A DNA stretch of 53,447 bases from an uncultured Anaerolineales bacterium (GCA_949319575.1 CASGHD010000074.1:1-53447), one strand, 5' to 3'; positions 12,426-53,149 are shown, counted from the first letter of the stretch. The notes: a model not told the origin generated them from the letters alone. Numbers and translations: made by a program.

Positions 12426-12453
12426 TTGACAAATCCCAAGAATCCATTATACT
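12426..12453 (+). promoter_or_regulatory. Promoter 1 of the catabolic regulon
   Basis: TTGACA (12426-12431) and TATACT (12448-12453) are 16 bases apart. Hexamers, spacing, the following operator and the downstream ribosome binding site are all repeated at 33144-33241 before the ring-reductase genes. Confidence 0.85.
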
Positions 12454-12457
12454 GAAT

Positions 12458-12498
12458 ATATCTCACTTATTTTACGGTATGATATAAAAGTGAGATAT
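12458..12498. promoter_or_regulatory. Inverted-repeat operator 1
   Basis: ATATCTCACTT (12458-12468) and AAGTGAGATAT (12488-12498) are a perfect 11-bp inverted repeat with a 19-base spacer, starting four bases after the -10 box. The same arms and total length (41 bp) occur at 33176-33216. The position over the transcription start suggests repression. The only conventional regulator gene in the cluster is the PaaX homologue at 37762, so it is the first candidate. Confidence 0.75.
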
Positions 12499-12539
12499 GT
12501 TTTGAAACGATGAAATCCAGTCGTTTCTGGAGGTTCTGC

Positions 12540-12806
12540 GTGGATGCATGTCTGTTTTGTACGCGGCAGGATCGGTTATTGATTGATGTAATCGCCAAAC
12601 GCTGGGAGGCGGCGCAGGATGCCAGTCTCTCAACAATATCGTGTTGGCTCAAAGTGGCGGGTGTCTTTTTAGATCAAGCATTGTTTTCCTGGTCGTCTAT
12701 CCAAAATTTGTTTTCACAATCACCTTGCGATACCCCCTGTCAAGGGGTTTTTATTTTGCTTGCAAAACGAGCGTTGGCACTGCGTATAGCAAGCGACTGC
12801 AAATAA
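12540..12806 (+). CDS. Possible 88-residue leader ORF
   Basis: GTG at 12540 sits six bases after GGAGG (12529-12533), exactly the spacing of the bcrC-like start at 33239 in the duplicated module. The frame stays open for 88 codons, has a CxxC near its start and three Trp residues, and matches no family I know. It runs through a terminator-like hairpin (12732-12757), which argues against an ordinary gene. It may be a leader peptide or what remained when the promoter module was copied here. Confidence 0.3.
   Translation: MDACLFCTRQDRLLIDVIAKRWEAAQDASLSTISCWLKVAGVFLDQALFSWSSIQNLFSQSPCDTPCQGVFILLAKRALALRIASDCK
12732..12757 (+). terminator. Terminator-like hairpin upstream of trpB2
   Basis: CCCCT (12734-12738) and AGGGG (12743-12747) with a four-base loop, followed by TTTTTATTTT. 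It lies roughly 290 bases after the predicted transcription start and 140 bases before trpB2, so it would either end a short leader RNA or act as an attenuator. Confidence 0.55.
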
Positions 12807-12900: not shown

Positions 12901-14283
12901 ATGAGCGATCAATATAAGTACGTACTCACCGAAGCCGATATGCCAAAGGCTTGGTACAACATCAATCCGGACATGCCGGTGGACCCGGCCAAGACCGCCT
13001 GGAACGCGGTACTACACCCCGGTACCAAGGAGCCGGTGACACCCGACTTCCTGGCGGTTTTATTCCCCATGAAATTCATCATGGAGGCGGTCAGCATGGA
13101 TCGCTGGATCGAGATCCCCGAACCGGTCCGCGACATATACAAACTGTGGCGCCCGTCGCCTCTCTATCGCGCCCACCGACTCGAGAAGGCGTTGGATACG
13201 CCCGCGCACATCTACTATAAATATGAAGGGGTATCCCCCGTTGGCTCGCATAAGCCCAACACGGCTATTGCCCAGGCATTTTACGCAAAAGAAGAGGGTG
13301 TCAAAGGTTTCACCACAGAAACCGGCGCGGGGCAGTGGGGCTCGGCAATGTCGATGGCGTGCAACTTCTTCGACCTGGAATGCCATGTCTACATGGTGAA
13401 GGTTTCCTACAACCAGAAACCGTATCGCCGCATCATCATGGAGAATTTCGGCGCGACGGTCACTCCCAGCCCTTCGAACAAGACCCAATACGGGCAAAAA
13501 GTGCTGGCGGAGGATCCCAACAGCCCCGGCTCGCTCGGCATTGCCATTTCAGAGGCGGTGGAGGCGGCGGTGACATCCAACGGCAAATATAAATATTCAC
13601 TGGGTTCTGTCCTTGGACCTGTGCTCATGCATCAGACCGTTATCGGGTTGGAAGCCATCAAGCAGTTCGATATGGCTGGCGAGTACCCGGACACGGTTAT
13701 CGCCTGTGTCGGCGGCGGGAGCAACTTTGCCGGCTTCACCTTCCCGTTCCTTCACAAGAACCTGACCGAAGGCGCAAAGACGCGCGTGGTTGCGGTTGAG
13801 CCAGCCGCCTGCCCAACGCTCACCAAGGGCAAATACGCGTTCGATTACGGCGATACCGCGCAGATGGCGCCCATCGTCAAGATGCACACGCTCGGCCACA
13901 ACTTTGTGCCGGAAGGCATTCACGCGGGCGGACTGCGCTATCACGGCATGGCGCCGCACGTCTCCGCGCTGGTAGACAGCGGTCACGTCGAAGCGGTCGC
14001 CATCGATCAGTTGGATACGTTCGAGGGCGCGTCCATTTTTGCGAAGGCGGAGGGAATCGTCCCGGCGCCCGAGTCGTCTCATGCTATTCGCGCCGCGATC
14101 AACGAGGCGTTGAAATGCAAAGAGGAAGGTACGAAGAAAGTGATCGCCTTCAACCTTTCAGGACACGGTATTTTCGACCTGGCGTCTTACGATGAATACA
14201 TGAAAGGCAACCTCCAGCGTTTTGAATATCCCGCTGAAAAGATCGAAGCGTCCATGAAGGACCTACCGGAGGTCGCTCTCTAA
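12901..14283 (+). CDS. trpB: TrpB2-type tryptophan synthase beta chain
   Basis: PLP enzyme that condenses indole with serine (or O-phosphoserine) to tryptophan. The 460 residues have the TrpB2-type N-terminal extension (AWYNINPDMPVDP...HPGTKEPVTP), the PLP lysine motif GSHKPNTA, the catalytic ETGAGQWG loop and the phosphate-binding GGGSNFAGF. TrpB2 proteins work without TrpA, and none is present here. Published work on archaeal-type TrpB2 found O-phosphoserine dependence. Here it heads a catabolic gene series and precedes a ParB/Srx-fold protein, a fold that includes free-serine kinases. This suggests indole capture into tryptophan before degradation, rather than biosynthesis; that role is inference. 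Confidence 0.92.
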   Translation: MSDQYKYVLTEADMPKAWYNINPDMPVDPAKTAWNAVLHPGTKEPVTPDFLAVLFPMKFIMEAVSMDRWIEIPEPVRDIYKLWRPSPLYRAHRLEKALDTPAHIYYKYEGVSPVGSHKPNTAIAQAFYAKEEGVKGFTTETGAGQWGSAMSMACNFFDLECHVYMVKVSYNQKPYRRIIMENFGATVTPSPSNKTQYGQKVLAEDPNSPGSLGIAISEAVEAAVTSNGKYKYSLGSVLGPVLMHQTVIGLEAIKQFDMAGEYPDTVIACVGGGSNFAGFTFPFLHKNLTEGAKTRVVAVEPAACPTLTKGKYAFDYGDTAQMAPIVKMHTLGHNFVPEGIHAGGLRYHGMAPHVSALVDSGHVEAVAIDQLDTFEGASIFAKAEGIVPAPESSHAIRAAINEALKCKEEGTKKVIAFNLSGHGIFDLASYDEYMKGNLQRFEYPAEKIEASMKDLPEVAL

Positions 14284-14298: not shown

Positions 14299-14334
14299 AT
14301 TCATTCCTCCAACTGTATCGTTGGAGGAATGAAT
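14299..14334 (+). promoter_or_regulatory. Hairpin covering the start of the ParB-like gene
   Basis: ATTCATTCCTCCAA (14299-14312) and TTGGAGGAATGAAT (14321-14334) form a perfect 14-bp stem with an 8-base loop. The right arm holds GGAGG and the ATG at 14329. No T-run follows, so it is a poor terminator and a good candidate for translational control. Confidence 0.65.
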
Positions 14335-15204
14335 ATTTCGGAAACATACACAGTAGATGACTGGCATGTTATGCGTACCCTCGAACCGTCTGAAATCCGC
14401 TTGCGTTTTGTGGCTCTTGAGAAATTGTTACTGCACGAGGAAGACGATCCCTACCGCGTGCAACGGATCGTCGATTCCATCACGCGGGATGGTCTCCTGC
14501 GCAATCCGCCTATTGTCGCGGAATACCAGTCGAAATACATCGTGCTGGATGGGGCGACTCGCGTTACAGCGTTGAGGGCTATGGGCTTCCGCGACGCCAT
14601 GGTCCAGATCGTGGAGTATGACAAAGAAACCGTGGACCTCAGCGTTTGGAACCACATCATCGTTGGTTTGTCTCCGGATCATCTGCTTGCGGACCTTGCG
14701 GATATCGATGAGTTTACAATTCAACCGATCGAGGAGACAACTGCCATCCAGCGGTTGAACGCGCGGGATATTGAAGCCTGCATCATCATGCGCAACGGCT
14801 CACAGTTCGCGGTGCTTTGCGAGGGCGATATCTGCGATAAGGCGGATCTGCTCTGCCAGCTGGTTTCGGTCTATCGAGGAAAAGCGGAAGTTCATCGCGC
14901 GGCGGCGATCAACATGCCGCTCTTGATCGGTGAATATCCCAACCTTTCGGCGGTCATTGCGTTCCCCGCGTACGCGCCGTCGGATGTGGTGGAGATCGCC
15001 CTCAATGGGAGCAAAATTCCCATGGGGGTGACCCGGCATCTCATCCCGGGGCGAGCGTTGGGGTTGAATATCCCCATTGAGAAGTTCGACGATTCGTCTT
15101 CCCTCGAAGAAAAGAATGCCTGGTTGGATGAAAGCATCCGCCAGAGATTGAAGATGAACAAAATTCGGTTGTATCAGGAACCGGTATTTGTATTCGATGA
15201 GTGA
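14329..15204 (+). CDS. ParB/Srx-fold protein, possible serine kinase
   Basis: The 291-residue product has a ParB N-terminal-like fold: IVDSITRDGLLRNPPIVAEY followed by the nucleotide-site motif YIVLDGATRVTALRAMGF. Two families with this fold, archaeal SerK and staphylococcal SbnI, phosphorylate free serine to O-phosphoserine. The gene lies 45 bases after trpB2, whose relatives use O-phosphoserine, so a serine-kinase role fits, though a DNA-binding regulator is not excluded. No helix-turn-helix is obvious in the C-terminal 170 residues. The start codon ATG 14329 lies in a hairpin only one base after GGAGG; M15 (14371) is an alternative start. Confidence 0.6.
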   Translation: MNISETYTVDDWHVMRTLEPSEIRLRFVALEKLLLHEEDDPYRVQRIVDSITRDGLLRNPPIVAEYQSKYIVLDGATRVTALRAMGFRDAMVQIVEYDKETVDLSVWNHIIVGLSPDHLLADLADIDEFTIQPIEETTAIQRLNARDIEACIIMRNGSQFAVLCEGDICDKADLLCQLVSVYRGKAEVHRAAAINMPLLIGEYPNLSAVIAFPAYAPSDVVEIALNGSKIPMGVTRHLIPGRALGLNIPIEKFDDSSSLEEKNAWLDESIRQRLKMNKIRLYQEPVFVFDE

Positions 15205-17089
15205 ATTGCCCATGCCTACTCAACTAATCACAGGAAACGAAGCGATCGCTTTGGGGATGGTGGAACAGGGTTGCCGCGTGGTGACCGCCTACCCTGGCAC
15301 GCCGAGCTCTGAAATTCTGGCGGGGGTCATCAAATATAAGAAGCGACTCAGCCGCGATGTGTACACAGAGTGGTCGGTCAATGAGAAGGTGGCGTTTGAG
15401 GTGGCGCTCGCTGCCAGTTGGACGGGACTGCGCGCCGCTGTGGCGATGAAACAGGTGGGGTTGAACGTCGCCTCCGATCCGCTGTTTAGCGCGGCGTACA
15501 CAGGCGTCAAAGGCGGATTCGTCATCATCCCCGCCGACGATCCTGGACCGCATTCCTCCCAGACCGAACAAGATTCACGATTGCTGGCGCTCACCGCCAA
15601 AGTGCCCGTGTTTGACCCATCCACGCCGGCGGAGGCGCGGGAGATGATCAAAGATGCATTCGCGCTTTCGGAACGCTACAGGATTCCTGTCATCGTTCGC
15701 CCGACAACGCGCCTGTGTCACGCCGTCAGCCCGAACGAGGTGGACGAATCCGCGCCCGACGAAAAAATTCCATCCGTCAAATTTCAGAAAGACCCAGTCC
15801 ATTGGACTGCCACCCCCAAACTGCGCTTCAAACTTCATACCGAACTCAACCAAAAACTGAGCGACATCACCGCCGAGTTTTCCAAATCGAAATATAACGA
15901 AACGATAGACGCCAACATCAACGGCGCGATCGGAATCATCGCCTCAGGCGTCGCGTTCCACACCGCCCAACAAGCGCTGACCGAGCTGGGCGCCCGCGTT
16001 CCCATGCTCAAAATTGGGACGCCGTTCCCGCTGCCATTATCTTTAATCGAAAATTTTTGCGCGTCGGTCAAAACTGTCGTCGTGTTGGAAGAGCCAGACA
16101 CCTGTATCGAATTGCAAATCGCGGACCGCAACAACGTGAAGGGACGGCTCGACGGCGCGGTTCCCAACGCGGGCGAGTTGACGCCCGAAGTGATGTTCTC
16201 GGTCTTGCACAAAATCTTCGCCCACGCGGGGATACAAGTCAACGCCGCGCCTGAGGATAACGAACTGAGCGCGTTCATCAAAACGCTTTCCCTGCCCGTG
16301 AGGCGACCGCGCCTCTGCCCTGGTTGTTCGCATCGCTCCGCGTTTTACGCCATGAAGCGAACGTTCGGTCCGCGCGCCATTTACCCTGGCGATATCGGCT
16401 GTTACACGCTGGGAACGAACCTCCGCGCGGTGGATACCTTCGTGGACATGGGCGCTTCGATCACGATGGCGAACGGATTCTTCCAAGCCAACCGACTCGC
16501 CAACGACGAGCGCGTCATCATGGCGACCATCGGCGATTCGACCTTCCTGCATTCGGGCATCCCGCCGCTGATCAACGCCGTCCACACGGGAGCGCGGTTT
16601 GTGTTGTTGATTCTCGATAATCACACCACCGCCATGACGGGTTTCCAGCCAACCGCCGCGAACGATTATCTGGCAGACGGCTCCGAGGCGCCGCGCAAAG
16701 TTTCCATCCCCGATCTCGTCCGCGCCTGCGGAGTGGAATACCTCAAAGTGACCGACCCGTATGAGCAGGAGGATTTCGCCGACATCCTGAAAGACGCGCA
16801 GGCGCACGCGCAATCTCCTAGCGGAGGCGTGGCGGTGGTCATCGCGGACCGTCCGTGCGTTTTATACGACAAGGAGCCGATTCTGGAGAATCCGCTTCCC
16901 GTCATCATCACCGAAGAATGCGACGGATGCCGCTTCTGCACCGAAGCCTTCGAGTGCCCCGCGCTGGTTCTGCGCGCCGACGGCAGCCGCGTGGATATTG
17001 ATTACACCATCTGCGTGGACTGCGGTCAGTGCATTGACGCCTGCCACAAGGGATTCATCGTGCCGAAGATCGCGGAGATGGTTGGCTGA
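15197..17089 (+). CDS. iorA: Indolepyruvate:ferredoxin oxidoreductase alpha subunit (copy 1)
   Basis: With IorB it decarboxylates aryl pyruvates to aryl-acetyl-CoA, reducing ferredoxin. About 630 residues: an N-terminal pyruvate-oxidoreductase-like domain (GNEAIALGMVEQGCRVVTAYPGTPSSE), a central TPP domain (CPGCSHRSAF; DIGCYTLG; IGDSTFLHSGIPP; LDNHTTAMTG), and two C-terminal 4Fe-4S motifs (CDGCRFCTEAFEC and CVDCGQCIDAC). The start at 15197 overlaps the ParB-like gene's stop; M at 15212 is also possible. Its neighbours (TrpB2, aminotransferase) point to indolepyruvate as substrate and indoleacetyl-CoA as product, which would remove the need for an indoleacetate-CoA ligase. Confidence 0.9.
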   Translation: MSELPMPTQLITGNEAIALGMVEQGCRVVTAYPGTPSSEILAGVIKYKKRLSRDVYTEWSVNEKVAFEVALAASWTGLRAAVAMKQVGLNVASDPLFSAAYTGVKGGFVIIPADDPGPHSSQTEQDSRLLALTAKVPVFDPSTPAEAREMIKDAFALSERYRIPVIVRPTTRLCHAVSPNEVDESAPDEKIPSVKFQKDPVHWTATPKLRFKLHTELNQKLSDITAEFSKSKYNETIDANINGAIGIIASGVAFHTAQQALTELGARVPMLKIGTPFPLPLSLIENFCASVKTVVVLEEPDTCIELQIADRNNVKGRLDGAVPNAGELTPEVMFSVLHKIFAHAGIQVNAAPEDNELSAFIKTLSLPVRRPRLCPGCSHRSAFYAMKRTFGPRAIYPGDIGCYTLGTNLRAVDTFVDMGASITMANGFFQANRLANDERVIMATIGDSTFLHSGIPPLINAVHTGARFVLLILDNHTTAMTGFQPTAANDYLADGSEAPRKVSIPDLVRACGVEYLKVTDPYEQEDFADILKDAQAHAQSPSGGVAVVIADRPCVLYDKEPILENPLPVIITEECDGCRFCTEAFECPALVLRADGSRVDIDYTICVDCGQCIDACHKGFIVPKIAEMVG

Positions 17090-17108: not shown

Positions 17109-17185
17109 TTTAATCACAAAGCACACGAAGGTCACAAAGGAAGTGCGTCTGCAAGATTAGCCGTCTTCTCCCCTTCGTGTTTAAT
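17109..17185. repeat. CACGAAGGTCACAAAGG-type repeat
   Basis: ATCACAAAGCACACGAAGGTCACAAAGG followed by an inverted CCCCTTCGTGTTT. The family recurs at 17789-17880, 26850-26935, 28614-28677 and 47978-48050. Confidence 0.65.
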
Positions 17186-17206
17186 TCCTTATTCCTTTGG
17201 CGAATC

Positions 17207-17854
17207 ATGAACCCAACCTCAACCAATGAACGCAAGGTCATCATCACGGGCATTGGCGGGCAGGGGATCGTCTTCCTCACGCGCCTGTTCTCGCAAACCG
17301 CGCTCGATCTGGGGCTGGGCGTGGTGGTCTCCGAAACGCATGGGATGAGCCAGCGCGGCGGCTCGGTCATCTCGCACCTCAAGATCAACGGAAGCGACGC
17401 GCCGTTGATCCAGCGCGGCTCTGCGGATGTGATGATCGCCATGGATCCAGGCGAAGCCATGCAAAACCTCGACTTCATGCGGCGCGGCGGGACGGTCTTC
17501 GTCAACAGCGCCGAAGGGTTGCATGAAAGCCTCGCGCCACATCTCGAACGGCTGGACATCCGCGTTTTGAATCATCCCGCCACTGCAACTGCCGTTGAGT
17601 TGGGCTCGCCCGCCGCCGCGAATATCGTGCTGGCGGGGTTCGTCGCGGCGTTTTTCATTTTGGGGCTTCCATACGAAAACATGATTCAAACGCTCAAACA
17701 AATCTCGAAGAAGGGAAGCGAGAAAAATTTGCAGGCGATCAACGCGGGTTTCGAGGCGGGGCAAAAAATAAATGAGGAAAAACTCAAACACAAAGGACAC
17801 GAAGCACACACAGGGAAGGAAGGAAATCAAGTTGTGAGCGTTTCTCCTTCGTGA
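17207..17854 (+). CDS. iorB: Indolepyruvate:ferredoxin oxidoreductase beta subunit (copy 1)
   Basis: Gamma-type domain partner of IorA. The 215 residues have the family N-terminus IITGIGGQGIVFLTRLF, the VSETHGMSQRGGSV block and a C-terminal helical part. The ATG at 17207 is preferred to an in-frame GTG at 17177 that lies in the intergenic repeat. The last 20 or so residues (from KLKHKGHEAH) are translated from a CACAAAGGACACGAAG repeat, so the ancestral stop seems to have been replaced by one inside the repeat. Confidence 0.88.
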   Translation: MNPTSTNERKVIITGIGGQGIVFLTRLFSQTALDLGLGVVVSETHGMSQRGGSVISHLKINGSDAPLIQRGSADVMIAMDPGEAMQNLDFMRRGGTVFVNSAEGLHESLAPHLERLDIRVLNHPATATAVELGSPAAANIVLAGFVAAFFILGLPYENMIQTLKQISKKGSEKNLQAINAGFEAGQKINEEKLKHKGHEAHTGKEGNQVVSVSPS

Positions 17855-17892: not shown

Positions 17893-18738
17893 ATGAACTC
17901 ATTCGATCACTTCACCCCCGCCACACTGACCGAGGCTCTTTCGATATTGGCCGAGCGCAACGGCAACGCCTCGATCATTGCGGGCGGCACCGATTTGCTT
18001 CTCAGGGTCAAGAATCACATCGTTAAGCCCGCCGCCGTGCTTAACGTCAAACGCGTCCCCGAACTGCGCGCGTTGTCGTTCGACTCAAATGAAGGATTGC
18101 GCGTCGGCGCTCTCACCACGCTGAGGGATTTAACCCGCTCGCCGCTCATCCGCGACTGTTATCCTGTGCTCGCTTCGGCGGCTGGATTGATGGCGTCGGA
18201 GCAGATTCGCAGTCTTGCGACGCTGGGCGGCAACTTGTGCAACGCTTCGCCATCCGCAGACCTCGCCCCGCCTCTCATCGCCCTTGATGCTGTCGCCTGT
18301 CTCGTCAGCCTTTCCTCCGAGCGACAGATTCCGCTCGCCGAATTTTTTACGGGACCTGGCAGATCTGTTTTGCAAAAGGGCGAGTTGTTGAAAGAGATCA
18401 TCGTTCCACCGCCGCAGGGAAAGACGGCGTATCTCAAACATTCGCCGCGCGCGTTCATGGACATTGCCATCGTCGGCGCCGCTGTGCGGATTCAACAACA
18501 GGGCGGCAAATGCCAGCAGGCGAGAATCGTGTTGGGGGCGGTCGCGCCAACTCCACTTCGGGTGAGAAGCGGGGAAGAGTCGCTGGAGGGGCAAACGCTC
18601 ACAAGCGAGGTCATCCGCCAAGCCGCGAAAATATCCGCCGAGTCGTGTTCCCCCATCAGCGACGTGAGAAGCGCGGCGTGGTATCGCAAACGGATGGTGG
18701 AAGTTTTGGTTCGCAGAGGTATCGAGGCGACGTTATGA
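17893..18738 (+). CDS. Molybdenum hydroxylase, FAD subunit (CoxM-like)
   Basis: FAD-binding subunit of a xanthine-dehydrogenase-family enzyme that hydroxylates aromatic or N-heterocyclic carbon with water. The 281 residues show AGGTDLLLR (FAD pyrophosphate), QIRSLATLGGNLCNASPSAD and the CO-dehydrogenase-flavoprotein C-terminal domain ending RKRMVEVLVRRG. It overlaps the 2Fe-2S subunit gene by four bases. In the proposed pathway the complex adds oxygen at C2 of the indole ring of indoleacetyl-CoA; substrate specificity is inferred only from context. Confidence 0.92.
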   Translation: MNSFDHFTPATLTEALSILAERNGNASIIAGGTDLLLRVKNHIVKPAAVLNVKRVPELRALSFDSNEGLRVGALTTLRDLTRSPLIRDCYPVLASAAGLMASEQIRSLATLGGNLCNASPSADLAPPLIALDAVACLVSLSSERQIPLAEFFTGPGRSVLQKGELLKEIIVPPPQGKTAYLKHSPRAFMDIAIVGAAVRIQQQGGKCQQARIVLGAVAPTPLRVRSGEESLEGQTLTSEVIRQAAKISAESCSPISDVRSAAWYRKRMVEVLVRRGIEATL

Positions 18739-19202
18739 AAACGCTGATTACGCTTAATATTAACGGCGATGCGCGTGAAATTTATATTGACGCGCGGCGA
18801 AGTTTGCTGGATATTCTGCGGGACGAACTCGCGCTGATGGGCGCGCATCGCGGGTGCGACTCGGGCGATTGCGGCGCGTGCACGGTCATCGTCAACGGAC
18901 AGCCCGTGACCTCGTGCATGATGCTGGCGGCGGATTGGAACGGCGCGGAGATTCTCACAGTGGAGGGGATGGCGAAAGACGGGCAGTTGCATCCCATCCA
19001 GCGCGCGCTGGTCGAGAAGGGCGGCATCCAGTGCGGCTTTTGCACGCCAGGTTTTGTGATGAACATCAAGGCGTTGCTGGATGAAAACCCGAAGCCGACC
19101 GAAGCCGAAGCGCGGGCGTGGCTGGCGGGGAATCTCTGCCGATGCACGGGCTACGCAAAAATTATCGAAGCAGTGATGAGCGTTGCGGAGGAATCGGCAT
19201 GA
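18735..19202 (+). CDS. Molybdenum hydroxylase, 2Fe-2S subunit (CoxS-like)
   Basis: A 155-residue electron-transfer subunit with two 2Fe-2S clusters. The plant-type cluster ligands are in GCDSGDCGACTV and the later SC near residue 59; the second cluster is in QCGFCTPG and CRCTGY. Length and motif order match the family. Four-base ATGA overlaps on both sides tie it to the M and L subunits. Electrons would pass from the Mo site through these clusters to FAD. Confidence 0.95.
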   Translation: MKTLITLNINGDAREIYIDARRSLLDILRDELALMGAHRGCDSGDCGACTVIVNGQPVTSCMMLAADWNGAEILTVEGMAKDGQLHPIQRALVEKGGIQCGFCTPGFVMNIKALLDENPKPTEAEARAWLAGNLCRCTGYAKIIEAVMSVAEESA

Positions 19203-24720: not shown

Positions 24721-24729
24721 AAACACAAG

Positions 24730-38702: not shown

Positions 38703-38730
38703 TATGTTTTTTGAAAATGGAGACATACAC

Positions 38731-44655: not shown

Positions 44656-45507
44656 ATGATCATAGACTTCCACATCCACCTCTCGCTTCCCGAACACGAA
44701 CTGCCATCCGTGTTGGAATGGATGCGTTCGAATTATCAAGGAGACCTCGATGCCTATGTCCGAGAAATTCTCACCCCGCAGGGAATCCGTCGGCATCTTC
44801 AAGCGCACGATGTTGACCTGGCTGTCGGTCTGGCGGAAGTCTCGCCTGTCACCACAGGCGTCGCGGATAACGACTACGTCGGCAAACTCTGCGCGTCAGC
44901 CAACGCGCTCGCCGACCCAGCCTCAGGTCCGCGCGGACGGCTGTTGCCCTTTGCCAGTATCAACCCATTCCTCGTCAACGATCTTGCCGCGGAACTCGAA
45001 AGGCTTGTAAAGGAATACGACTTCAAAGGGATCAAGGTCTACCCGCCGTATCAGCATCACTACGTCAATGACCCGCGCATGTATCCGCTGTACGCCAAGG
45101 CGCAGGAACTCGGTCTGCCGATGATGGTGCATACGGGCTCGTCCGTCTTCAAAGGCGCGCGCATCAAATACGCCGATCCGCTTCTGCTCGACGACGTGGC
45201 GATTGACTTTCCCGAACTGAATATTCTGATGGCGCATTCGGGGCGTCCGTTCTGGTACGAGCAGGCGTTCTGGCTGGCGCGGCGGCACGAGAACGTGTAT
45301 ATGGAAATTTCGGGTCTGCCCGCCAAACACCTGCTGGATTATTTCCCGCGCCTCGAAATGCTCGCGGATAAGGTCGTCTACGGCTCAGACTGGCCTGGCA
45401 ACCCAGACCTGCGCCGCAACGTCTCAGCCATCCGCGCTTTGAATATTTCGGAGGAAGCGAAGCAAAAGATTCTGCGCGATAACGCGGCAAGGATTTTGAA
45501 GTTATAG
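44656..45507 (+). CDS. Amidohydrolase-2 family TIM-barrel protein
   Basis: The 283-residue metal enzyme shows the family ligands DFHIHL, the His of MMVHTG and MAHSG, and the Asp of YGSDWPG. The family includes ACMSD-type decarboxylases and hydrolases. Within this cluster it could act on a side product such as an aryl carboxylate or lactone, but nothing in the sequence fixes the substrate. Flanked on both sides by family B repeats, so it may have joined the operon as a unit. Confidence 0.8.
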   Translation: MIIDFHIHLSLPEHELPSVLEWMRSNYQGDLDAYVREILTPQGIRRHLQAHDVDLAVGLAEVSPVTTGVADNDYVGKLCASANALADPASGPRGRLLPFASINPFLVNDLAAELERLVKEYDFKGIKVYPPYQHHYVNDPRMYPLYAKAQELGLPMMVHTGSSVFKGARIKYADPLLLDDVAIDFPELNILMAHSGRPFWYEQAFWLARRHENVYMEISGLPAKHLLDYFPRLEMLADKVVYGSDWPGNPDLRRNVSAIRALNISEEAKQKILRDNAARILKL

Positions 45508-45642: not shown

Positions 45643-47391
45643 ATGCGAGAATTTTTACTAGGTAACGAAGCCATCGCCCGCGGAGCGTGGGAAGCGGGAG
45701 TCAAATTCGTATCGGGTTACCCAGGCACGCCCAGCACCGAGATCATCGAAACCCTGGCGACGCGCTTCCCCGAAACCAACCCGCGCTGGTCAACGAACGA
45801 GAAGGTCGCGTTTGAAGAGGGCATGGGCGCGGCGATCGGCGGCTTGCGGACGCTCGTCACCATGAAGCACGTCGGTCTCAACGTCGCGGCGGACGCCTTC
45901 ATGGTCTTCCCCTACTCTGGCACGAACGGCGGCTTCGTCGTCATCTCCGCCGACGACCCTGGGATGCACTCCTCGCAAAACGAGCAGGACAACCGCTACC
46001 TCGCGCGAGTCGCCAAAGTCCCCGTGCTCGAGCCGAGCGACGCGCAGGAATGTCACGACTTCATGATCGCGGGACTCGAACTCTCGGAGCAGTTCCGCTC
46101 GCCCGTCATGCTCCGCACAACGACCAGGCTCGCCCATCACAAGGGATTGGTGGAAGTCGGCGAACGGGCGGATGTGCCGCCCCGCGAGTTTATCCGCGAC
46201 CCCCAACGTTTCTCTGTCCCGATCTATCGCCTGATTCGCCGCCCCGAAGTTGAGAAAACGCTGACGGCTTTCGCCGAATACGCCGAGACCTGCCCCTTCA
46301 ACCGCATCGAAGAAGGCGCGGATGACAAAATCGGCGTGGTCACTTCGGGGATTTCCTATCAATATGTGAAAGAAGTTTTGCCAGACGCGGGCATCCTGCG
46401 ACTCGGCATGACCTTCCCCTTGCCCGCTAATCTCCTGCGCGACTTCTGCGCGAAATACGAAACGGTGTACGTCGTCGAAGAAGGCGAACCGTTCATCGAA
46501 GAATTCATGCGCGGCGCGGGAATCACAAACCTGACAGGCAAGGAACTCTTCGGCGTCATCGGCGAATACTCGCCAGGCAGATTGCGGAAGACGCTCGGGC
46601 TGGGCGCCCCGCCCGAGCCGTTCACCAACGACGGCGTCAACCTCATCATGCGCCCGCCCATGTTCTGCGTCGGTTGCGGACATCGCACCGTTTTCGCCGC
46701 GTTGAGACAGTTGCGAGTCACGGTCTCGGGCGATATCGGCTGTTACACGATGGGCGCTTTGCATCCCTACGAAGCGGAACACACCACCTTCGCGATGGGA
46801 TCAAGCATCGGTGTCGCCGTCGGCTTGGAGCAGGCGGGACACGAGAACACCGTCGCCATCATCGGCGACTCGACCTTCATTCACGCGGGCATTCCGCCGC
46901 TGATCGACGCGGTCTACAACCGAAGCCGCCTGACGCTCATCATCCTCGACAACTCCACGACGGGCATGACGGGCAGTCAGCCCAACCCCGTTTCAGGCAA
47001 AGATGTGATGGGACAGCAGGCGCCTCAAATTGACCTCGAAGCGTTGTGCCGCGCCTCGGGCGTCGAAAACGTTGCCATCGTGGATACATGGGATCGCAAG
47101 GAAGTCGTCAACGTCATCCGCCGCGCCGTCTCTTTCAAAGGACCCGCCGTTGTCATCGCGCGCGGACCGTGCCAGCAGATTCCCGAAATCAAACACTCGC
47201 ATCGCATCCCGTTCTTCATTCACGAAGACCTTTGCACGCAATGCGACGCCTGCTTCAAAGTGTGGTGTCCCGCCATCACGCGCGCGCCGCAGAACTTCCC
47301 CGTCATCGCCGCCAACGAATGCACATCCTGCACCGTCTGCGCCCAGGTCTGCCCAACGGACGCCATCAAGCTCGCGGAGGAAACTGCATGA
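45643..47391 (+). CDS. iorA: Indolepyruvate:ferredoxin oxidoreductase alpha subunit (copy 2)
   Basis: The 582-residue second IorA paralogue. N-terminal GNEAIARGAWEAGVKFVSGY, TPP domain with FCVGCGHRTVF, DIGCYTMG and IGDSTFIHAGIPP, then two 4Fe-4S motifs (CTQCDACFKVWC and CTSCTVCAQVC). The first motif of each copy is irregular in its last spacing. It is shorter than copy 1 and closer to archaeal-type IorA. It may serve other aryl pyruvates (phenylpyruvate, hydroxyphenylpyruvate) or mainly make reduced ferredoxin for benzoyl-CoA reductase. Confidence 0.9.
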   Translation: MREFLLGNEAIARGAWEAGVKFVSGYPGTPSTEIIETLATRFPETNPRWSTNEKVAFEEGMGAAIGGLRTLVTMKHVGLNVAADAFMVFPYSGTNGGFVVISADDPGMHSSQNEQDNRYLARVAKVPVLEPSDAQECHDFMIAGLELSEQFRSPVMLRTTTRLAHHKGLVEVGERADVPPREFIRDPQRFSVPIYRLIRRPEVEKTLTAFAEYAETCPFNRIEEGADDKIGVVTSGISYQYVKEVLPDAGILRLGMTFPLPANLLRDFCAKYETVYVVEEGEPFIEEFMRGAGITNLTGKELFGVIGEYSPGRLRKTLGLGAPPEPFTNDGVNLIMRPPMFCVGCGHRTVFAALRQLRVTVSGDIGCYTMGALHPYEAEHTTFAMGSSIGVAVGLEQAGHENTVAIIGDSTFIHAGIPPLIDAVYNRSRLTLIILDNSTTGMTGSQPNPVSGKDVMGQQAPQIDLEALCRASGVENVAIVDTWDRKEVVNVIRRAVSFKGPAVVIARGPCQQIPEIKHSHRIPFFIHEDLCTQCDACFKVWCPAITRAPQNFPVIAANECTSCTVCAQVCPTDAIKLAEETA

Positions 47392-47978
47392 AGACCTACA
47401 ACCTGATGTTCGCGGGCGTCGGCGGGCAGGGATCGCTTCTCATCGCTGAACTGACCTCGCTCGCCGCCGTCAACGCGGGATACGATACGAAGCAGACCGA
47501 AGTTCACGGCGTCTCGCAAAGAGGCGGGAGCGTGGAGACTCACGTCCGCTTCGGAGAAAAAGTCCACTCGCCCATCGTCACCCCAGGCGAAGCCGACGCG
47601 GTGGTCGGACTCGAAAAACTGGAAGCATTGCGTTTCGCGCATTACCTGAATATCGAAACTGGGACAGTTCTCGTCAACGACCATGAACTGGTGCCAGGCT
47701 CGGTCCCCAACGCCGAAAGTATTTATCCGCGTGAGACGATTGACTTCCTCAAATCAAAGGGAATGCGAGTCGTCGCCCTGCCCGCCTCGCAAACCGCGCG
47801 CGATCTCGGCGACGCCCGCATGGCAAACGTCGTCATGCTCGGCGCGTTGTCCACGCTGTTGCCCATCGAGCAGGAGGTTTGGGAGAAGACGCTCAAACTC
47901 CGCATCCCCGCCAAATATTTGGATGGCAATTTGAAGGCGTTCGAGTCTGGTTATGATGCGATGCAAAAAGCTATTTAA
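47388..47978 (+). CDS. iorB: Indolepyruvate:ferredoxin oxidoreductase beta subunit (copy 2)
   Basis: The 196-residue partner of the preceding gene, with FAGVGGQGSLLIAELTSL and the KQTEVHGVSQRGGSVETHVRFG block. ATGA overlap with the alpha gene, closer coupling than in copy 1, where a repeat lies between the two genes. Confidence 0.9.
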   Translation: MKTYNLMFAGVGGQGSLLIAELTSLAAVNAGYDTKQTEVHGVSQRGGSVETHVRFGEKVHSPIVTPGEADAVVGLEKLEALRFAHYLNIETGTVLVNDHELVPGSVPNAESIYPRETIDFLKSKGMRVVALPASQTARDLGDARMANVVMLGALSTLLPIEQEVWEKTLKLRIPAKYLDGNLKAFESGYDAMQKAI

Positions 47979-48050
47979 CACGAAGAACACAAAGGAAAAA
48001 AGAAAAATCTTTTAAACCTTCGTGACCTTTGTGCCTTTGTGGTGAAAAGG
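47978..48050. repeat. ACACGAAGAACACAAAGG-type repeat
   Basis: AACACGAAGAACACAAAGG faces CCTTCGTGACCTTTGTGCCTTTGTGG before the next gene. Confidence 0.7.
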
Positions 48051-48070
48051 TTTTTGGAAAGGAGTTAGAG

Positions 48071-49390
48071 ATGTCCGCGAATCCAAACGACACGCACGAA
48101 CTGATCTACGATTGGAATCTTGTCGAAGCGCCCAACGCCCCCAAGAAGCGCGTGATGGTCACCGACGAAACCCTGCGCGACGGACTGCAATCGCCGTCGG
48201 TCATCCAGCCTGAGATTCAAGACAAAGTGTATTTGCTGTACCTCATGTCTGACCTCGGCGTGGATGCGGCAGACCTGGGGCTGTGCGGCGCGGGCGAGAA
48301 GTTCAAATATCACGTTAGCGTGCTGGCGAAGGAAATCGTCAAGCAAAAGATGGACATCCAGCCGCAGAGCGCGGCGCGTTCCGTCGTCGCCGATATCATC
48401 CCCATCGTGGATGTCTCCGAAGATGTCGGCGTTCCGCTCGAAGCGGCGGTCTTCCTCGGCACAAGTCCCATTCGCCGATTCGCCGAAGGCTGGGATGTGG
48501 ATTTCCTGTTGCGTCAGACCGAAGACGCCGTCACCTTCGCCACCAAACACGGCATCCCCGTTATGTTCGTCACCGAAGACACCGTTCGCGCCGACCCTGA
48601 GACTCTGCGTCGGGTGTACGAAACAGCCATCAGGTCGGGAGCGAAGCGCATCTGCGCCGCCGATACGGTCGGTCACATCGCCCCGCACGGAGTCCACGCG
48701 CTGATCACCTTCCTCCGCAAAATCGTGGACGAGGTTGACCCGACGGTGGGCATTGACTGGCACGGGCATAAAGATCGCGGGCTGGATATCGCCAACTCGA
48801 TCGCCGCCGTCGAAGCGGGCGCGGACCGCGTCCACGCTTGCGGATTGGGCATCGGCGAACGAAGCGGCAACACGCCGATGGAACTTCTGCTGGTCAACTT
48901 CAACCTGCTCGGCTGGGGCGCGCGCGACCTGACGAAACTGCCCGAATACTGCGAAGTGATCGCCGACAAATGCGGCGCGGTGATCCCGTTCAATTATCCC
49001 GTTGTCGGGGCCGACGCCTTCCGCACGACGACGGGCGTCCATGCGGCGGCAATCGCCAAGGCGCTCACCAAAAACGACGAGTGGCTCGCGGAGCATGTCT
49101 ATTGCGGCGTGCCTTCGAGCATGGTCGGGCGCGCGCATGAGATCGAGATCGGTCCGATGTCTGGCGAGCATAACGTGCGCTTCTTTTTACGCAAACACAA
49201 AATGGAAGAGAACCCCGCCTATGTGACGAAGATTCTCGAAGTGGCGAAACGCTCCAATCACCTGCTCGGCGAAGACGATGTGCGCCGCATCGTGACGGTG
49301 ATGAGCCGCCGCCAGCGCGCGCATCAGGAAGTGACCGACGAGGAACTGGATCACGAGTTGACGCGCCGCCGCGAAAGGATTCTGCGATGA
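48071..49390 (+). CDS. DRE-TIM acyltransferase/lyase (isopropylmalate synthase-like)
   Basis: The 439-residue enzyme of the pyruvate-carboxyltransferase-like family: VTDETLRDGLQSP (metal Asp and catalytic Arg), the metal motif DWHGHKDRGL, and CGLGIGERSGNTPMELLL. The family includes 2-isopropylmalate, homocitrate, citramalate and benzylmalate synthases and HMG-CoA lyase. It lacks a clear C-terminal allosteric domain; the tail (after about residue 330) is helical. A LeuC/HacA-type subunit is encoded nearby, so a 2-oxoacid chain-elongation route is possible. AAAGGAG supports the ATG at 48071. It overlaps the MoaD-like gene. Confidence 0.78.
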   Translation: MSANPNDTHELIYDWNLVEAPNAPKKRVMVTDETLRDGLQSPSVIQPEIQDKVYLLYLMSDLGVDAADLGLCGAGEKFKYHVSVLAKEIVKQKMDIQPQSAARSVVADIIPIVDVSEDVGVPLEAAVFLGTSPIRRFAEGWDVDFLLRQTEDAVTFATKHGIPVMFVTEDTVRADPETLRRVYETAIRSGAKRICAADTVGHIAPHGVHALITFLRKIVDEVDPTVGIDWHGHKDRGLDIANSIAAVEAGADRVHACGLGIGERSGNTPMELLLVNFNLLGWGARDLTKLPEYCEVIADKCGAVIPFNYPVVGADAFRTTTGVHAAAIAKALTKNDEWLAEHVYCGVPSSMVGRAHEIEIGPMSGEHNVRFFLRKHKMEENPAYVTKILEVAKRSNHLLGEDDVRRIVTVMSRRQRAHQEVTDEELDHELTRRRERILR

Positions 49391-49918: not shown

Positions 49919-49932
49919 GTATGAGGTAAATC

Positions 49933-51801
49933 TTGACCCACACATCCCCTATTGCCATCATCAACCTTTCGACGGGCGAAATCAAAACCACATCCACGCC
50001 CGATGAATTGCTTCGCGCCTATCTCGGCGGGCGCGGACTGAACATGGCGTACCTGCGTCATTACCTGCGTCAGCATGGCGACCCGCGCAGTGTAGACGCG
50101 CTCAGCCCGGAGAATCCGCTCATTGTTGGCGCGGGGCTGATGACGGGGACGATCTCTCCCAACGCGGCGCGCTTCAACGTCTCGGCGCGTTCGCCTGAAA
50201 GCGGCATTCTCGGCGACGCCAACTGCGGCGGATTCTTCGCGGCGGCGATGCGCAAGGCGGGCTTTGATCGTCTCATCATTTTAGGACGCGCCGAAAAACC
50301 GTCCTACCTGCTGATCGAAGACGGGCAGATCAGCGTCCATGCGGCGGATGGGCTGTGGGGGTTGAACGCGATCGAGGCGCAGAATCAACTCAAAGCGCGG
50401 CACGGAAGCGGGACCGTCTCCGCAGTGATCGGACCGTCGGGCGAGAATCAAGTCCGCATGGCGGCAATCATGACAGGTCAAAAGAACGCGGCGGGACGCG
50501 GCGGCATGGGCGCGGTGATGGGGAGCAAGAATCTCAAAGCCATCGTCGCGCGAGGCGGGACCGTGATCGAAGTGGCGCAAAAGGAAACTTTGCGGGCGTT
50601 GCGGCTCAAACAACAGGAGGAGTTGAAAAGCTCGAAGGTGGTGCAAGTGTTGGGCAAGGTCGGCACGCCGCTGTTATACGAAGTGAGCAACCGACTCGGC
50701 GCGATCCGAACACGCAACTCGCAGGATAATTTTTTCGAGGAAACGCTCAACGGCGAAGAGGTTGAAAAATTTTCAGACAAGATGCTGGCTTGCACGTCGT
50801 GCGTGGTGCATTGCCGTCATCGTAACACGCTGGGCGGCGAAGGACCCGAATACTCGACGCTGGTCCTGCTCGGCGCGAACATCGGCATTGCGCCCACCGA
50901 TCAGGTCATCCAGTTGAACAACCTCGTCAACGATCTCGGCTTGGACGCCTCTTCGACTGGCACGATCATCGGCTGGGCGATGGAGTTGTACCAGCGCGGA
51001 TTGATCGACGACTCGCTGACAGGCAAGCCGTTGGTCTGGGGCGATTACGAAACCGTGTATGCGTTGATCGAAGATATCGCGCATCGGCGCGGGTTTGGAA
51101 ACATTCTCGCCGAAAGCACGCAAGCCGCGCGATATTTCCCGCAGGCGGCGCTCGATTATTTGATCGCCGTCAAAAATTTGCCGCAGTCCGACCCGCATGA
51201 TGTTCGTTACTTCAAAGGCTTCGCGCTGGGCATCGCAGTCGCCAGCCGCGGCGCGGATCATCTCCGCAACCGCCCCACGCTGGAGGTCTTCAAACTTCCC
51301 GACGAAGCGCGCGCGAACGTTTATGGGCGCGCCAACGACCCCGACCCGACGGGCTACAAAGACAAGGGGTTGATCGTCGCGTACGGCGACGATATCTACG
51401 CGGTGGCGGATTGTCTCGGCGTGTGCCGCTTCGTCACGCGCGGATTCAACAGTCCGCATTTGCTGGGCTATCAAGACTTTTGCGACTCGGTCGCCGCCGC
51501 GACAGGGCTGGAATACACCCCCGCCTCTCTCCGCGACGTGGGGCGGCGCACGCTGGACACGGAGCGACTCATCAACGCGGGCTTCGGACTGACGCGCGCC
51601 GACGACACCCTGCCCAAACGCTACTTCGACGACCCGATGCCCGCGCGAAAAACGAAAGGTCATCACGTAGACAGGGAACAATTCCAACTGATGCTCGACG
51701 AGTATTACGCCGAGCGCGGCTGGGACGCGGATGGGCGAGTCTCCGCCGAGAGGATCGCGGAGATAGATGGACTTAATGATGTCATTGCGGGATGTTCTTA
51801 G
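49933..51801 (+). CDS. Tungsten aldehyde:ferredoxin oxidoreductase
   Basis: Oxidises aldehydes to acids with ferredoxin as acceptor. The 622-residue protein has the AOR N-terminal domain (YLGGRGLNMAYL; GPSGENQVRMAAIMTGQKNAAGRGGMGAVMG) and cluster cysteines CTSCVVHC and CLGVC near residue 495. Start is TTG at 49933, with GAGG six bases before it; the only upstream in-frame ATG (49921) meets a stop two codons later. Its last residues (IAGCS) are encoded by the start of a family B repeat. Likely substrates are aryl acetaldehydes formed from aryl pyruvates; the reduced ferredoxin could feed benzoyl-CoA reductase. Confidence 0.9.
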   Translation: MTHTSPIAIINLSTGEIKTTSTPDELLRAYLGGRGLNMAYLRHYLRQHGDPRSVDALSPENPLIVGAGLMTGTISPNAARFNVSARSPESGILGDANCGGFFAAAMRKAGFDRLIILGRAEKPSYLLIEDGQISVHAADGLWGLNAIEAQNQLKARHGSGTVSAVIGPSGENQVRMAAIMTGQKNAAGRGGMGAVMGSKNLKAIVARGGTVIEVAQKETLRALRLKQQEELKSSKVVQVLGKVGTPLLYEVSNRLGAIRTRNSQDNFFEETLNGEEVEKFSDKMLACTSCVVHCRHRNTLGGEGPEYSTLVLLGANIGIAPTDQVIQLNNLVNDLGLDASSTGTIIGWAMELYQRGLIDDSLTGKPLVWGDYETVYALIEDIAHRRGFGNILAESTQAARYFPQAALDYLIAVKNLPQSDPHDVRYFKGFALGIAVASRGADHLRNRPTLEVFKLPDEARANVYGRANDPDPTGYKDKGLIVAYGDDIYAVADCLGVCRFVTRGFNSPHLLGYQDFCDSVAAATGLEYTPASLRDVGRRTLDTERLINAGFGLTRADDTLPKRYFDDPMPARKTKGHHVDREQFQLMLDEYYAERGWDADGRVSAERIAEIDGLNDVIAGCS

Positions 51802-51869
51802 GCGAAGTAATCCCTAACATCGTGACGGAGATTGCTTCGTCGGGAAGATCGCCCTCCTTGCAATGACAT
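51779..51869. repeat. Family B palindromic repeat spanning a stop codon
   Basis: ATGTCATTGCGGGATG faces CTCCTTGCAATGACAT. The left end encodes the C-terminus and stop of the upstream gene; the right end supplies an in-frame ATG (51863) before the next gene. Confidence 0.75.
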
Positions 51870-51892
51870 CATTTGAGAAAAGGAAACCATGT

Positions 51893-53149
51893 ATGGCACA
51901 CACACTTGCAGAAAAAATCCTGGCTGAAAAATGCGACCAGAAGGAACTCTACCCTGGGCAGTTCATCAACGCCCGCGTGGATATGGTGATGGCGTCTGAG
52001 CTTTCGGGCGTGCTTGCCATCGAAGAGTTCGAGAAGATCAAGGGCGCGCGCGTCTGGGATCCCAAAAAGGTGGTCTTCGTGATGGATCACTTCACGCCCG
52101 CCAAAGACATCAAATCTGCCGAGATCGTCAAGCAATGCCGCGAGTTTGCGGCGGCGCACGGCATCCGCTTTTACGATGTGGGACGGGCGGGCATCCAGCA
52201 CATCTTGTTGCCCGAGCAGGGCATGATCGTCCCTGGCGACCTGATCGCGGGCGCGGACTCGCATACCTGCACGCACGGTTTCATTGGCGCGTTCGGTACG
52301 GGCATCGGCTCGACCGATGCGGCGGTGGCGATGGCGCTGGGCGAGTTGTGGATGAAAGTGCCAGAGAGCGTCAAGTTTGTTTATCACGGTAAGCCGCAGA
52401 AGTGGGTGCGCGGCAAGGATTTGATCCTGCACACCATCGCGCGGATCGGCGTCGAAGGGGCGCGGTATCAGGCGATGGAGTTTATGGGCGAAGCGCTTCA
52501 GCATCTCGACATGAGCGACCGCTTCTCGATGGCGAACATGGCGATCGAAGCGGGGGCGAAGGCGGGTTTGTTTGAGGCGGACGAAATGACCCGCTCCTTC
52601 ATCCGCGCGCGCGGGCGCGAGGACGGCTTGTACCTGCAAAGCGACCCCGATGCGGAATACGCGGCGGTCTATGAATTCGACGTGTCGGAGTTCGAACCAT
52701 TCGTGGCGGTGCCGTTCATCCCAGAAAACGTCAAACCCGTTTCACAACTCAACGAAGTGGAGATCGACCAGGCGGTGATCGGCATGTGCACCAACGGCAA
52801 CCTTGAAGACTTGCGAGCCGCGGCAGAGATTCTCAAGGGACATCAGATCCATCCGCGCGTGCGGGCGGTGATCATCCCTGGCTCGCAGAAGGTGTATCTC
52901 GACGCCCTACGCGAAGGGCTGATCGAAATCTTCATCCAAGCCAATTGCTCGGTCAGCACGCCCACCTGCGGACCGTGCCTCGGCGGTCACATGGGCGTGC
53001 TGGCGGCGGGCGAGAAGTGCATCTCCACCAGCAACCGCAACTTCCGCGGGCGCATGGGTCACACCTCCAGCGAACTGTATCTCGCCAACCCCTACGTCGC
53101 CGCCGCGTCTGCCATCGCGGGCAGGATTATTTCTCCCGACGATTTGTAA
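51893..53149 (+). CDS. 3-isopropylmalate/homoaconitate-type dehydratase large subunit
   Basis: The 418-residue aconitase-superfamily large subunit of the LeuC2/HacA group: GADSHTCTHGFIGAFGTGIG, cluster cysteines in GMCTNGNLEDL and STPTCGPCLGGHMG, and STSNRNFRGRMGH. A small subunit (LeuD/HacB) must exist but is not in the remaining 298 bases. ATG 51893 gives the length normal for the group; ATG 51863 begins inside a repeat. With the DRE-TIM synthase at 48071 it suggests a chain-elongation or alkylmalate isomerisation step; leucine synthesis is the conventional alternative. Confidence 0.87.
   Translation: MAHTLAEKILAEKCDQKELYPGQFINARVDMVMASELSGVLAIEEFEKIKGARVWDPKKVVFVMDHFTPAKDIKSAEIVKQCREFAAAHGIRFYDVGRAGIQHILLPEQGMIVPGDLIAGADSHTCTHGFIGAFGTGIGSTDAAVAMALGELWMKVPESVKFVYHGKPQKWVRGKDLILHTIARIGVEGARYQAMEFMGEALQHLDMSDRFSMANMAIEAGAKAGLFEADEMTRSFIRARGREDGLYLQSDPDAEYAAVYEFDVSEFEPFVAVPFIPENVKPVSQLNEVEIDQAVIGMCTNGNLEDLRAAAEILKGHQIHPRVRAVIIPGSQKVYLDALREGLIEIFIQANCSVSTPTCGPCLGGHMGVLAAGEKCISTSNRNFRGRMGHTSSELYLANPYVAAASAIAGRIISPDDL

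Follow-up and report, generated by a model that had tools for sequence, protein, structure and literature searches.

The window analysed here comprises 53,447 nt of DNA from an uncultured Anaerolineales bacterium and is contig C74 of its assembly (G000; 3.65 Mb in 227 contigs, 91% complete; genomes, contigs and loci carry our own G, C and L numbers). It harbours a gene cluster that appears to serve the anaerobic degradation of indole. All described genes between 12901 and 53149 are located on the + strand in two operons (Table 1). A previous sequence-only reading had described an apparently complete route from tryptophan or indole to a ring-opened product, and the enzymes it listed are all present as open reading frames on the + strand in this region. 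The list holds as far as it goes, but it did not contain trpB2, a serine-kinase-like gene, the PaaX regulator, an amidohydrolase, a second IorAB, a homocitrate-synthase-like gene, an aldehyde:ferredoxin oxidoreductase and an aconitase. With a probability of roughly two in three, we propose that this two-operon regulon would enable an anaerobic Anaerolineales bacterium to use indole, and also tryptophan, via O-phosphoserine, the tryptophan synthase beta chain TrpB2, a route of the indoleacetate (iaa) type and ring reduction.

Table 1. Features of the cluster in the window, with model scores and cut-offs in bits where given.
Feature	Position	Strand	Remarks
Operator-like inverted repeat, 5' of trpB2	12455..12501	.	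AATATATCTCACTT / AAGTGAGATATGTT, 19 nt apart, after TATACT
98-aa frame	12510..12806		Between repeat and trpB2; no Pfam match
TrpB2-type tryptophan synthase beta chain	12901..14283	+	TIGR01415 635.8 (cut-off 518.85); NF009057 710.4; Lys118 in GSHK
SbnI/SerK-like serine kinase	14329..15204	+	NF033589 E 2e-23, residues 24-289
IorA1, indolepyruvate ferredoxin oxidoreductase alpha	15188..17089	+	TIGR03336 651.4 (cut-off 650.9)
IorB1	17177..17854	+	126.9, under cut-off 227
Mo-hydroxylase FAD subunit	17893..18738	+	
Mo-hydroxylase FeS subunit	18738..19202	+	Listed frame from 18510; homology starts near 18738
Mo-hydroxylase Mo subunit	19118..21577	+	TIGR03194 587.3, under cut-off 994.55
HisC-like aminotransferase	21693..22814	+	TIGR01141 283.8 (cut-off 276.55); SFSK at 225
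Methylmalonyl-CoA-epimerase-like protein	22811..23248	+	106.8, below cut-off 114.95
Class III CoA-transferase (IaaL-like by context)	23331..24533	+	CaiB family; NF052585 202.1, under cut-off 750; below each curated cut-off
IaaF-type acyl-CoA dehydrogenase, GGG motif	24709..25884	+	Reads RDARFLLYGGGTSE
B12-binding mutase small subunit	26444..26851	+	TIGR00640 146.7 (cut-off 57.45)
Mutase large subunit (IaaGH-like)	26953..28599	+	TIGR00641 601.2 (cut-off 303.8)
Hydantoinase/lactamase alpha (HydA, 692 aa)	28703..30781	+	NF050156 531.9, under cut-off 1000; Pfam Hydantoinase_A
Hydantoinase/lactamase beta (HydB, 549 aa)	30918..32567	+	NF050157 253.4, under cut-off 1000; no third subunit
Second operator-like repeat copy	33176..33214	.	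Just 5' of bcrC
Class I reductase subunit, MbdN-like (bcrC)	33239..34405	+	531.4 to 9g87_B
Class I reductase subunit, MbdO-like	34522..35820	+	541.9 to 9g87_A
Class I reductase ATPase subunit	36089..36904	+	Pfam BcrAD_BadFG 220.9
Class I reductase ATPase subunit, MbdP-like	36901..37728	+	301.9 to 9gai_C
PaaX-family repressor	37762..38604	+	TIGR02277 222.9 (cut-off 264.55); three PaaX Pfam domains
Oah-like ring-opening hydratase	38704..39768	+	TIGR03200 217.5, cut-off 464.45
Dch-like dienoyl-CoA hydratase	39880..40644	+	TIGR03189 169.1, cut-off 292.5
MaoC-type hydratase	40763..41218	+	
Short-chain dehydrogenase/reductase (SDR)	41248..42015	+	
Thiolase	42017..43216	+	
Had-like dehydrogenase	43514..44536	+	TIGR03201 272.6, cut-off 338.65
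Amidohydrolase-2 family protein	44656..45507	+	Pfam PF04909 161; accompanies many related clusters
Second IorA/IorB pair	45643..47978	+	IorA 663.2 (cut-off 650.9); IorB 215.7 (cut-off 237)
Homocitrate/isopropylmalate-synthase-like protein (hcs)	48029..49390	+	
Aldehyde:ferredoxin oxidoreductase family	49933..51801	+	Not between hcs and acn in G012/G017; present in G451, G454
Aconitase family (acn)	51863..53149	+	

Gene content, order, motifs, the upstream repeat and their recurrence were read directly from the DNA. Of the 34 frames that the window has from trpB2 through acn, 31 recur in unchanged order in two congeneric genomes, G012 (a single contig of 3,970,692 bases) and G017; hence the gene set is not due to chance. 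The three frames without counterpart there are a GxxExxY gene, a 122-aa frame whose reality is doubtful and the aldehyde oxidoreductase. By dehydrogenase identity the closest named relatives are Anaerolineales/Chloroflexi metagenome assemblies (L067 93%, L068 91%, L069 91%). Both halves of the cluster are also retained in G451 (Lac Pavin), G454 (Mohns) and G570, the genes beyond the amidohydrolase not being found in G570 and Oah there being only 34% identical. In G039 the upper half is present, trpB2 and serK included; the 60 kb stretch examined did not show bcr. G448 equals G017 and G455 equals G052 by coordinates, and each pair was counted once. A scattering of these genes among relatives, named beforehand as an outcome that would speak against the route, did not appear, since the cluster is kept together.

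A 19-base motif overlapping the inverted repeat occurs at exactly two sites of the 3.65 Mb assembly, before trpB2 and before bcrC (≤2 mismatches; reversed control 0), and is absent from 100 shuffles of the window at ≤3 mismatches. As these are its sole sites, the earlier suggestion that the ring-reduction genes are joined to the remaining route in one regulon is supported. The repeat also precedes both genes in G012 and G017, and bcrC in L070 and L071. Of the 31 stretches scanned, 7 contain it and 2 others match poorly; more distant clusters are thus not reached. The first gene recognised past the repeat is trpB2 in the window as well as in G012 and G017. The PaaX-family protein is a candidate binder of the repeat and may sense indoleacetyl-CoA.

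The core of the first operon is well supported as an iaa-type route, as the sequence-only reading had supposed, both by the GGG motif of the dehydrogenase and by conserved neighbourhoods. According to passages of PMC8360864, the benzylmalonyl-CoA dehydrogenase IaaF carries GGG where most relatives have YEG, and its branch belongs to operons that also contain other iaa genes. When a genome collection was scanned with the window dehydrogenase, using patterns without the GGG motif itself (one pattern lies close by), 171 relatives were obtained, of which the best 80 were kept. They derive from Chloroflexota, Acidobacteria, Planctomycetes, Rokubacteria, Proteobacteria, Bacteroidetes and others, and many loci are cut by contig ends. 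GGG is present in 79 of these 80 loci and GAG in one; the window and three relatives that were checked have GGG as well. Beside the dehydrogenase we found the large mutase subunit (61 loci), HydA (57), the CoA-transferase (53) and the large Mo-hydroxylase subunit (45), at least one of the four in 74 loci. No Aromatoleum locus is among these 80 best relatives. Reports of a single TAG in five IaaF genes were considered as recoding and rejected: four are terminal stops and one (L206) is internal, likely in a broken gene.

Y76, R206 and H231 of the mutase correspond to a Tyr, an Arg and a His in the methylmalonyl-CoA mutase of P. shermanii, residues that we take to bind the free carboxylate. Against the Paramagnetospirillum locus L114 the window mutase reaches 690 bits (tblastn), and against the best-scoring solved mutase 484 bits (phmmer), the programs being different. 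An affinity to unrelated functions, also named beforehand as a counter-indication, did not appear for mutase and dehydrogenase, both of which score higher to iaa-like loci of other phyla than to solved homologues (compared by different programs, without trees). The Mo-hydroxylase would hydroxylate indoleacetyl-CoA at C2. For HydAB, a hydantoinase-type 2-oxoindoleacetyl-CoA gamma-lactamase is described as acting in indoleacetate metabolism in parts of PMC5214803.

Related clusters vary in this core. HydAB is swapped for a 34-41% identical relative in L074, L085, L157, L158 and L219, and two of these loci, L074 and L158, also have a V4R-type gene close by. Three genomes of the genus retain an additional HydAB pair and, in its vicinity, a CoA-transferase (L044, on G000:C213; L045; L046). 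A further acyl-CoA dehydrogenase occurs in L084, L086 and L204-L206, along with genes for another Mo-hydroxylase, a set that perhaps serves another indole compound.

TrpB2 stands at the head of the cluster, and Lys118 is presumably its pyridoxal phosphate (PLP) lysine. The enzyme is predicted to form tryptophan from indole and O-phosphoserine. TrpB2 enzymes are O-phosphoserine users with high indole affinity, as stated in parts of PMC11917138 (citing Busch 2014, Hettwer and Sterner 2002). Within the class TrpB2 itself is common: 155 of 199 sampled genomes have it at E 1e-100. In this sample IaaF was searched at 1e-115, and hits with E < 1e-150 were called strong, a cut chosen after the list was known. 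Strong IaaF occurs in 13 genomes, 12 of which have TrpB2 within 25 kb on the contig or, on another contig, together with iorA1 (12/20 at 1e-115). In eight of the 13, TrpB2 is located on the iaaF contig at a distance of 9-22 kb (G000, G570, G512, G561, G490, G633, G643, G541). Four have it on a separate contig with iorA1 (G636, G631, G579, G617), together with Mo-hydroxylase genes except in G636; G631 and G579 were matched to G458 and G459 by coordinates. The 13th genome, G567, has no TrpB2 at E 1e-100; its iaaF is the L206 gene with the internal stop, and the locus is perhaps a decaying cluster.

As background, the 30 top-ranked TrpB2 loci in the class search were read with flanks of at most about 1.4 kb, two loci of cluster genomes being excluded. 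None of the remaining 28, all from genomes without strong IaaF, has an adjoining iorA, so that a commonplace pairing of TrpB2 and IorAB was rejected. Seven of the 28 adjoin a class V aminotransferase or a phosphoglycerate-dehydrogenase-like gene (≥41% identity), and five more show a weaker dehydrogenase match. For the class V aminotransferase the highest score is to BhcA (299 of 650), SerC models giving only about 50 bits; the dehydrogenases reach 413-424 bits to phosphoglycerate dehydrogenase (cut-off 454). Some clusters likewise have a phosphoglycerate-dehydrogenase-like gene adjoining trpB2, with or without serK. Across this class TrpB2 may hence be generally tied to phosphoserine supply, and its tie to IorAB may be specific to the cluster.

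TrpB2 is co-located with IaaF also in a Rokubacterium (L103) and two Gammaproteobacteria (L120, L125). In the latter two, TrpB2 and an IOR-like gene (IOR, indolepyruvate ferredoxin oxidoreductase) lie beside iaa-like genes, with no ligase found in the stretch examined. In a TrpB2 tree of 55 sequences (3 fragments dropped; G039, G447 and G449 left out) the cluster label has to change 6 times, and well-supported branches force at least 4 of these changes. Among the 80 iaaF loci TrpB2 goes with IOR (9/11 versus 11/69, p 3e-5, kinship not corrected for and many loci cut by contig ends); in these counts 6 loci, all TrpB2 carriers, were extended with extra sequence, and 10/80 have trpB2 without that extension. 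Mutual exclusion of TrpB2 and ligases was not significant (Fisher p 0.50). The genome-wide TrpB2 look-up covered 40 of the 80 loci. That the window TrpB2 is the ordinary tryptophan synthase of the host was rejected, as trpA and trpB1 of G000 lie on another contig; in the five hosts with neither gene over cut-off (named below) TrpB2 may have that role. TrpB enzymes are promiscuous and nothing fixes the nucleophile here, so TrpB2 could join phosphoserine to another partner, e.g. a substituted indole, in a cluster degrading an indole derivative. The downstream enzymes however fit the iaa set for unsubstituted indoleacetyl-CoA, and we regard such a substrate as very improbable.

The gene behind trpB2 encodes a protein that would convert serine to O-phosphoserine. 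The nine best PDB matches of its AlphaFold model (mean predicted local distance difference test, pLDDT, of 88) are SbnI, the free serine kinase SerK and the P. furiosus relative 1vk1, with template modelling (TM) scores of 0.64-0.69 by query; ParB matches are lower (≤0.24). All 18 aligned sequences (13 cluster, 5 non-cluster) have E37 and D74. In the alignment E37 falls on the LHE glutamate of SbnI and, judged from the offset between the listed ranges, corresponds roughly to E30 of SerK, the residue altered in PDB 5x0g and 5x0k. D74 we take to be the catalytic Asp of the free serine kinase fold. The gene directly follows trpB2 in 12 genomes (the window, G012, G017, G039, G447, G452, G455, G457, G459, G464, G466, G570); in G447 the remainder of the cluster was not seen on that contig. 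G643 and G617 have it within about 3 kb of trpB2, an aminotransferase and a dehydrogenase lying in between. G458 and G541 show a phosphoglycerate-dehydrogenase-like gene at trpB2 instead of the kinase, and G458 also has a separate TrpB2-kinase pair elsewhere. Kinase relatives outside the cluster (17 loci, flanks of about 1.5 kb) have no cluster gene adjacent save one weak aldehyde-oxidoreductase match.

From its context the HisC-like protein may be a tryptophan aminotransferase. IorAB1 would then yield the thioester directly, and therefore no CoA ligase would be required. An IaaB-like CoA ligase was not recognised within the window, and PaaK-type ligases above 25 bits are missing in G000, G012, G017 and G451 (12 genomes searched). 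Entry via IorAB, as put forward in the sequence-only reading, is supported; the start is most likely indole through TrpB2 and phosphoserine, a mechanism that reading did not contain.

Side-chain removal would proceed by the MaoC-type hydratase, with 2-aminocinnamoyl-CoA as probable substrate, the SDR and the thiolase. Three of the reductase subunits were searched and find their best PDB matches in the 3-methylbenzoyl-CoA reductase chains MbdO, MbdN and MbdP; the fourth was placed by Pfam. All scores to Bcr/Bzd models are below cut-off (C 266.6/421.15, B 213.2/486.55; for the ATPase at 36901-37728, Bcr D 147.5/312.85 and BzdQ 142.6/380.2). What had been called a class I benzoyl-CoA reductase is class I reductase-like with four subunits, but nearest to 3-methylbenzoyl-CoA reductase.

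For the pathway as a whole we infer every substrate, the direction of TrpB2 and the deamination. SerK would phosphorylate serine to O-phosphoserine, which TrpB2 would join to indole, giving tryptophan and phosphate. The aminotransferase would form indolepyruvate and IorAB1 convert it to indoleacetyl-CoA, CO2 and reduced ferredoxin. Following hydroxylation at C2 by the Mo-hydroxylase, HydAB, acting as ATP-dependent lactamase, would open the pyrrole ring to (2-aminophenyl)succinyl-CoA. CoA-transferase and epimerase might set the thioester position and the stereocentre, the B12 mutase would produce (2-aminobenzyl)malonyl-CoA and the IaaF-type dehydrogenase 2-aminocinnamoyl-CoA. MaoC, SDR and thiolase would release acetyl-CoA and 2-aminobenzoyl-CoA, the methylbenzoyl-CoA-reductase-like enzyme with Dch, Had and Oah being the candidates for ring reduction and ring opening. 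The serine carbons would be regained as acetyl-CoA and CO2, which makes serine a recoverable handle for the inert ring. An entry of indole through phosphoserine is likely in our view.

A number of observations weigh against this pathway. The closest solved TrpB relative is 6hul (450 bits), ahead of 4qys (374 bits), presumably the phosphoserine-dependent TrpB entry. In the seven genomes with weaker IaaF (E 1e-115 to 1e-132) TrpB2 is on another contig (5) or absent at E 1e-100 (2); G495 and G521 among them still have CoA-transferase and/or Mo-hydroxylase genes beside the dehydrogenase. The changes on the TrpB2 tree are gains or losses, not told apart. The kinase-like protein stays under the SbnI and SerK equivalog cut-offs (83.1 of 350; 42.1 of 380). 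SerK is found nowhere in G449, G450, G451 and G453, and the Rokubacterium and Gammaproteobacteria whose TrpB2 adjoins iaa genes (G478, G483, G484) yielded no such kinase either. The aminotransferase passes the histidinol-phosphate model. For oxidoreductases, specificity could not be predicted from sequence (PMC13290082). Published anaerobic indole intermediates are oxindole, isatin and anthranilate, tryptophan not being among those given in the parts of PMC6221969 consulted. Moreover, no gene seen accounts for the loss of the ring amino group, and calling the route complete was therefore too strong. Denitrifiers carry out reductive deamination to benzoyl-CoA.

Of the same kind is the absence of serK beside trpB2 in nine Chloroflexota clusters (G450, G451, G453, G454, G456, G458, G460, G465, G541), which would suit tryptophan from protein as the main substrate, TrpB2 and SerK merely recapturing indole lost to or made by neighbours. 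Aminotransferase and IorAB are enough for tryptophan, and trpA and trpB1 were both not found over cut-off in five of the 11 distinct hosts searched (G454, G455, G457, G464, G466). The leading position of trpB2 after the repeat and the at least four changes of its tie to iaa genes argue for the indole route instead, and a phosphoserine-making gene beside trpB2 is compatible with synthesis only. We hold tryptophan as main substrate to be unlikely.

The ligases also belong here. PaaK-type ligases are present in the cluster hosts G464, G466 and G570 (543-570 bits), and in G012 a fusion of an AMP-forming acyl-CoA ligase with LeuD, an odd architecture, comes right after the aconitase, i.e. beyond the window. 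Contig C63 of G000, whose first 103 bases are the last 103 of the window and which probably adjoins it, carries an 83% identical copy; coordinates and frame lengths suggest the same arrangement in G017 and G451. The earlier statement that there is no ligase is hence correct within the window only. Such a ligase could serve the classic iaa route from free indoleacetate, TrpB2 and IorAB having another purpose, and many proteobacterial iaa-like loci do contain an AMP-forming ligase. G000 however has no PaaK-type ligase, its best match to the ligase of a proteobacterial iaa-like locus reaches 206.6 bits and 32% identity as compared to 570-578 bits in G480, G481 and G482, and IorAB would give the thioester directly. 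Free indoleacetate as substrate is thus improbable, and indole remains the preferred one.

Downstream of the ring-opening genes lies a second module of IorAB2, the homocitrate/isopropylmalate-synthase-like gene, aconitase, the ligase-LeuD fusion and a LeuB-like dehydrogenase (window 45643-53149; L233 287-3523; L027 15693-17780). It could be of the 2-oxoacid elongation or Re-citrate-synthase type and feed reduced ferredoxin. The GxxExxY (PD-(D/E)XK-like) gene at 25988-26380 varies in its insertion point among related clusters (also L067; G052 contig C32). An interspersed repeat is located between the operons (32940-33057) and again at the contig end (53306-53446), with 82% identity over 141 columns; it is also seen at L233 1-103. 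At the contig end it is the probable cause of the break in the assembly. 5' of the cluster, a minus-strand gene (9741-11540) combines DUF5939 with an adenylate/guanylate cyclase domain.

Indole, which tryptophan-metabolising bacteria widely produce, is both a signal molecule and a pollutant. We lean, slightly beyond even odds, towards the view that an inert N-heterocycle is attacked here by adding a recoverable amino-acid handle (O-phosphoserine) and not by hydroxylation, a biosynthetic enzyme being run catabolically as a counterpart to fumarate addition; such a strategy may have originated several times, TrpB2 being recruited to iaa-type clusters in Chloroflexota, Rokubacteria and Gammaproteobacteria. 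It would be a case of an anabolic enzyme turned to degradation. The combination of trpB2 with iaaF gives testable genes and a marker for seeking indole degraders in digesters, lakes and vents. In the parts of a 2018 review consulted, one isolate is named as strictly anaerobic indole degrader and the anaerobic enzyme is treated as speculation (PMC6221969). No account linking TrpB2 or phosphoserine to indole catabolism was recognised in searches of an open-access library (subscription papers lay outside the scope).

Compared with known systems, the cluster appears related to the iaa pathway of Aromatoleum aromaticum and A. evansii, the new parts being a different entry and an added ring-reduction operon. 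Both share the GGG-type dehydrogenase, two-subunit lactamase, split B12 mutase, a class III CoA-transferase (here a putative IaaL) and Mo-hydroxylase, the last of which we take to be part of the Aromatoleum pathway. Here, in contrast, the window has no IaaB-like ligase, entry would be by TrpB2, SerK, aminotransferase and IorAB, a PaaX regulator is present, and reductase and ring-opening genes belong to the same regulon. With the TrpB2 treated in parts of PMC11917138 the window protein shares a family score over cut-off and nearby phosphoserine-making genes; it differs by heading a catabolic operon, trpA and trpB1 of the host being elsewhere. SbnI-SbnA of staphyloferrin B and the archaeal SerK-cysteine synthase likewise have a ParB-fold serine kinase serving an O-phosphoserine-using PLP enzyme (for SerK, parts of PMC5120207), whereas the partner here would make tryptophan for degradation and the kinase is below both equivalog cut-offs. 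The 3-methylbenzoyl-CoA reductase MbdNOPQ provides the best PDB match for the three subunits searched (531, 542, 302 bits); neighbourhood and presumed substrate (2-aminobenzoyl-CoA or benzoyl-CoA) differ. SbnA is presumably the PLP enzyme partner of SbnI. Finally, the known anaerobic degradation of indole via oxindole, isatin and anthranilate has the same starting compound, whereas in the route proposed here C2 hydroxylation would follow the addition of a carbon chain at C3.

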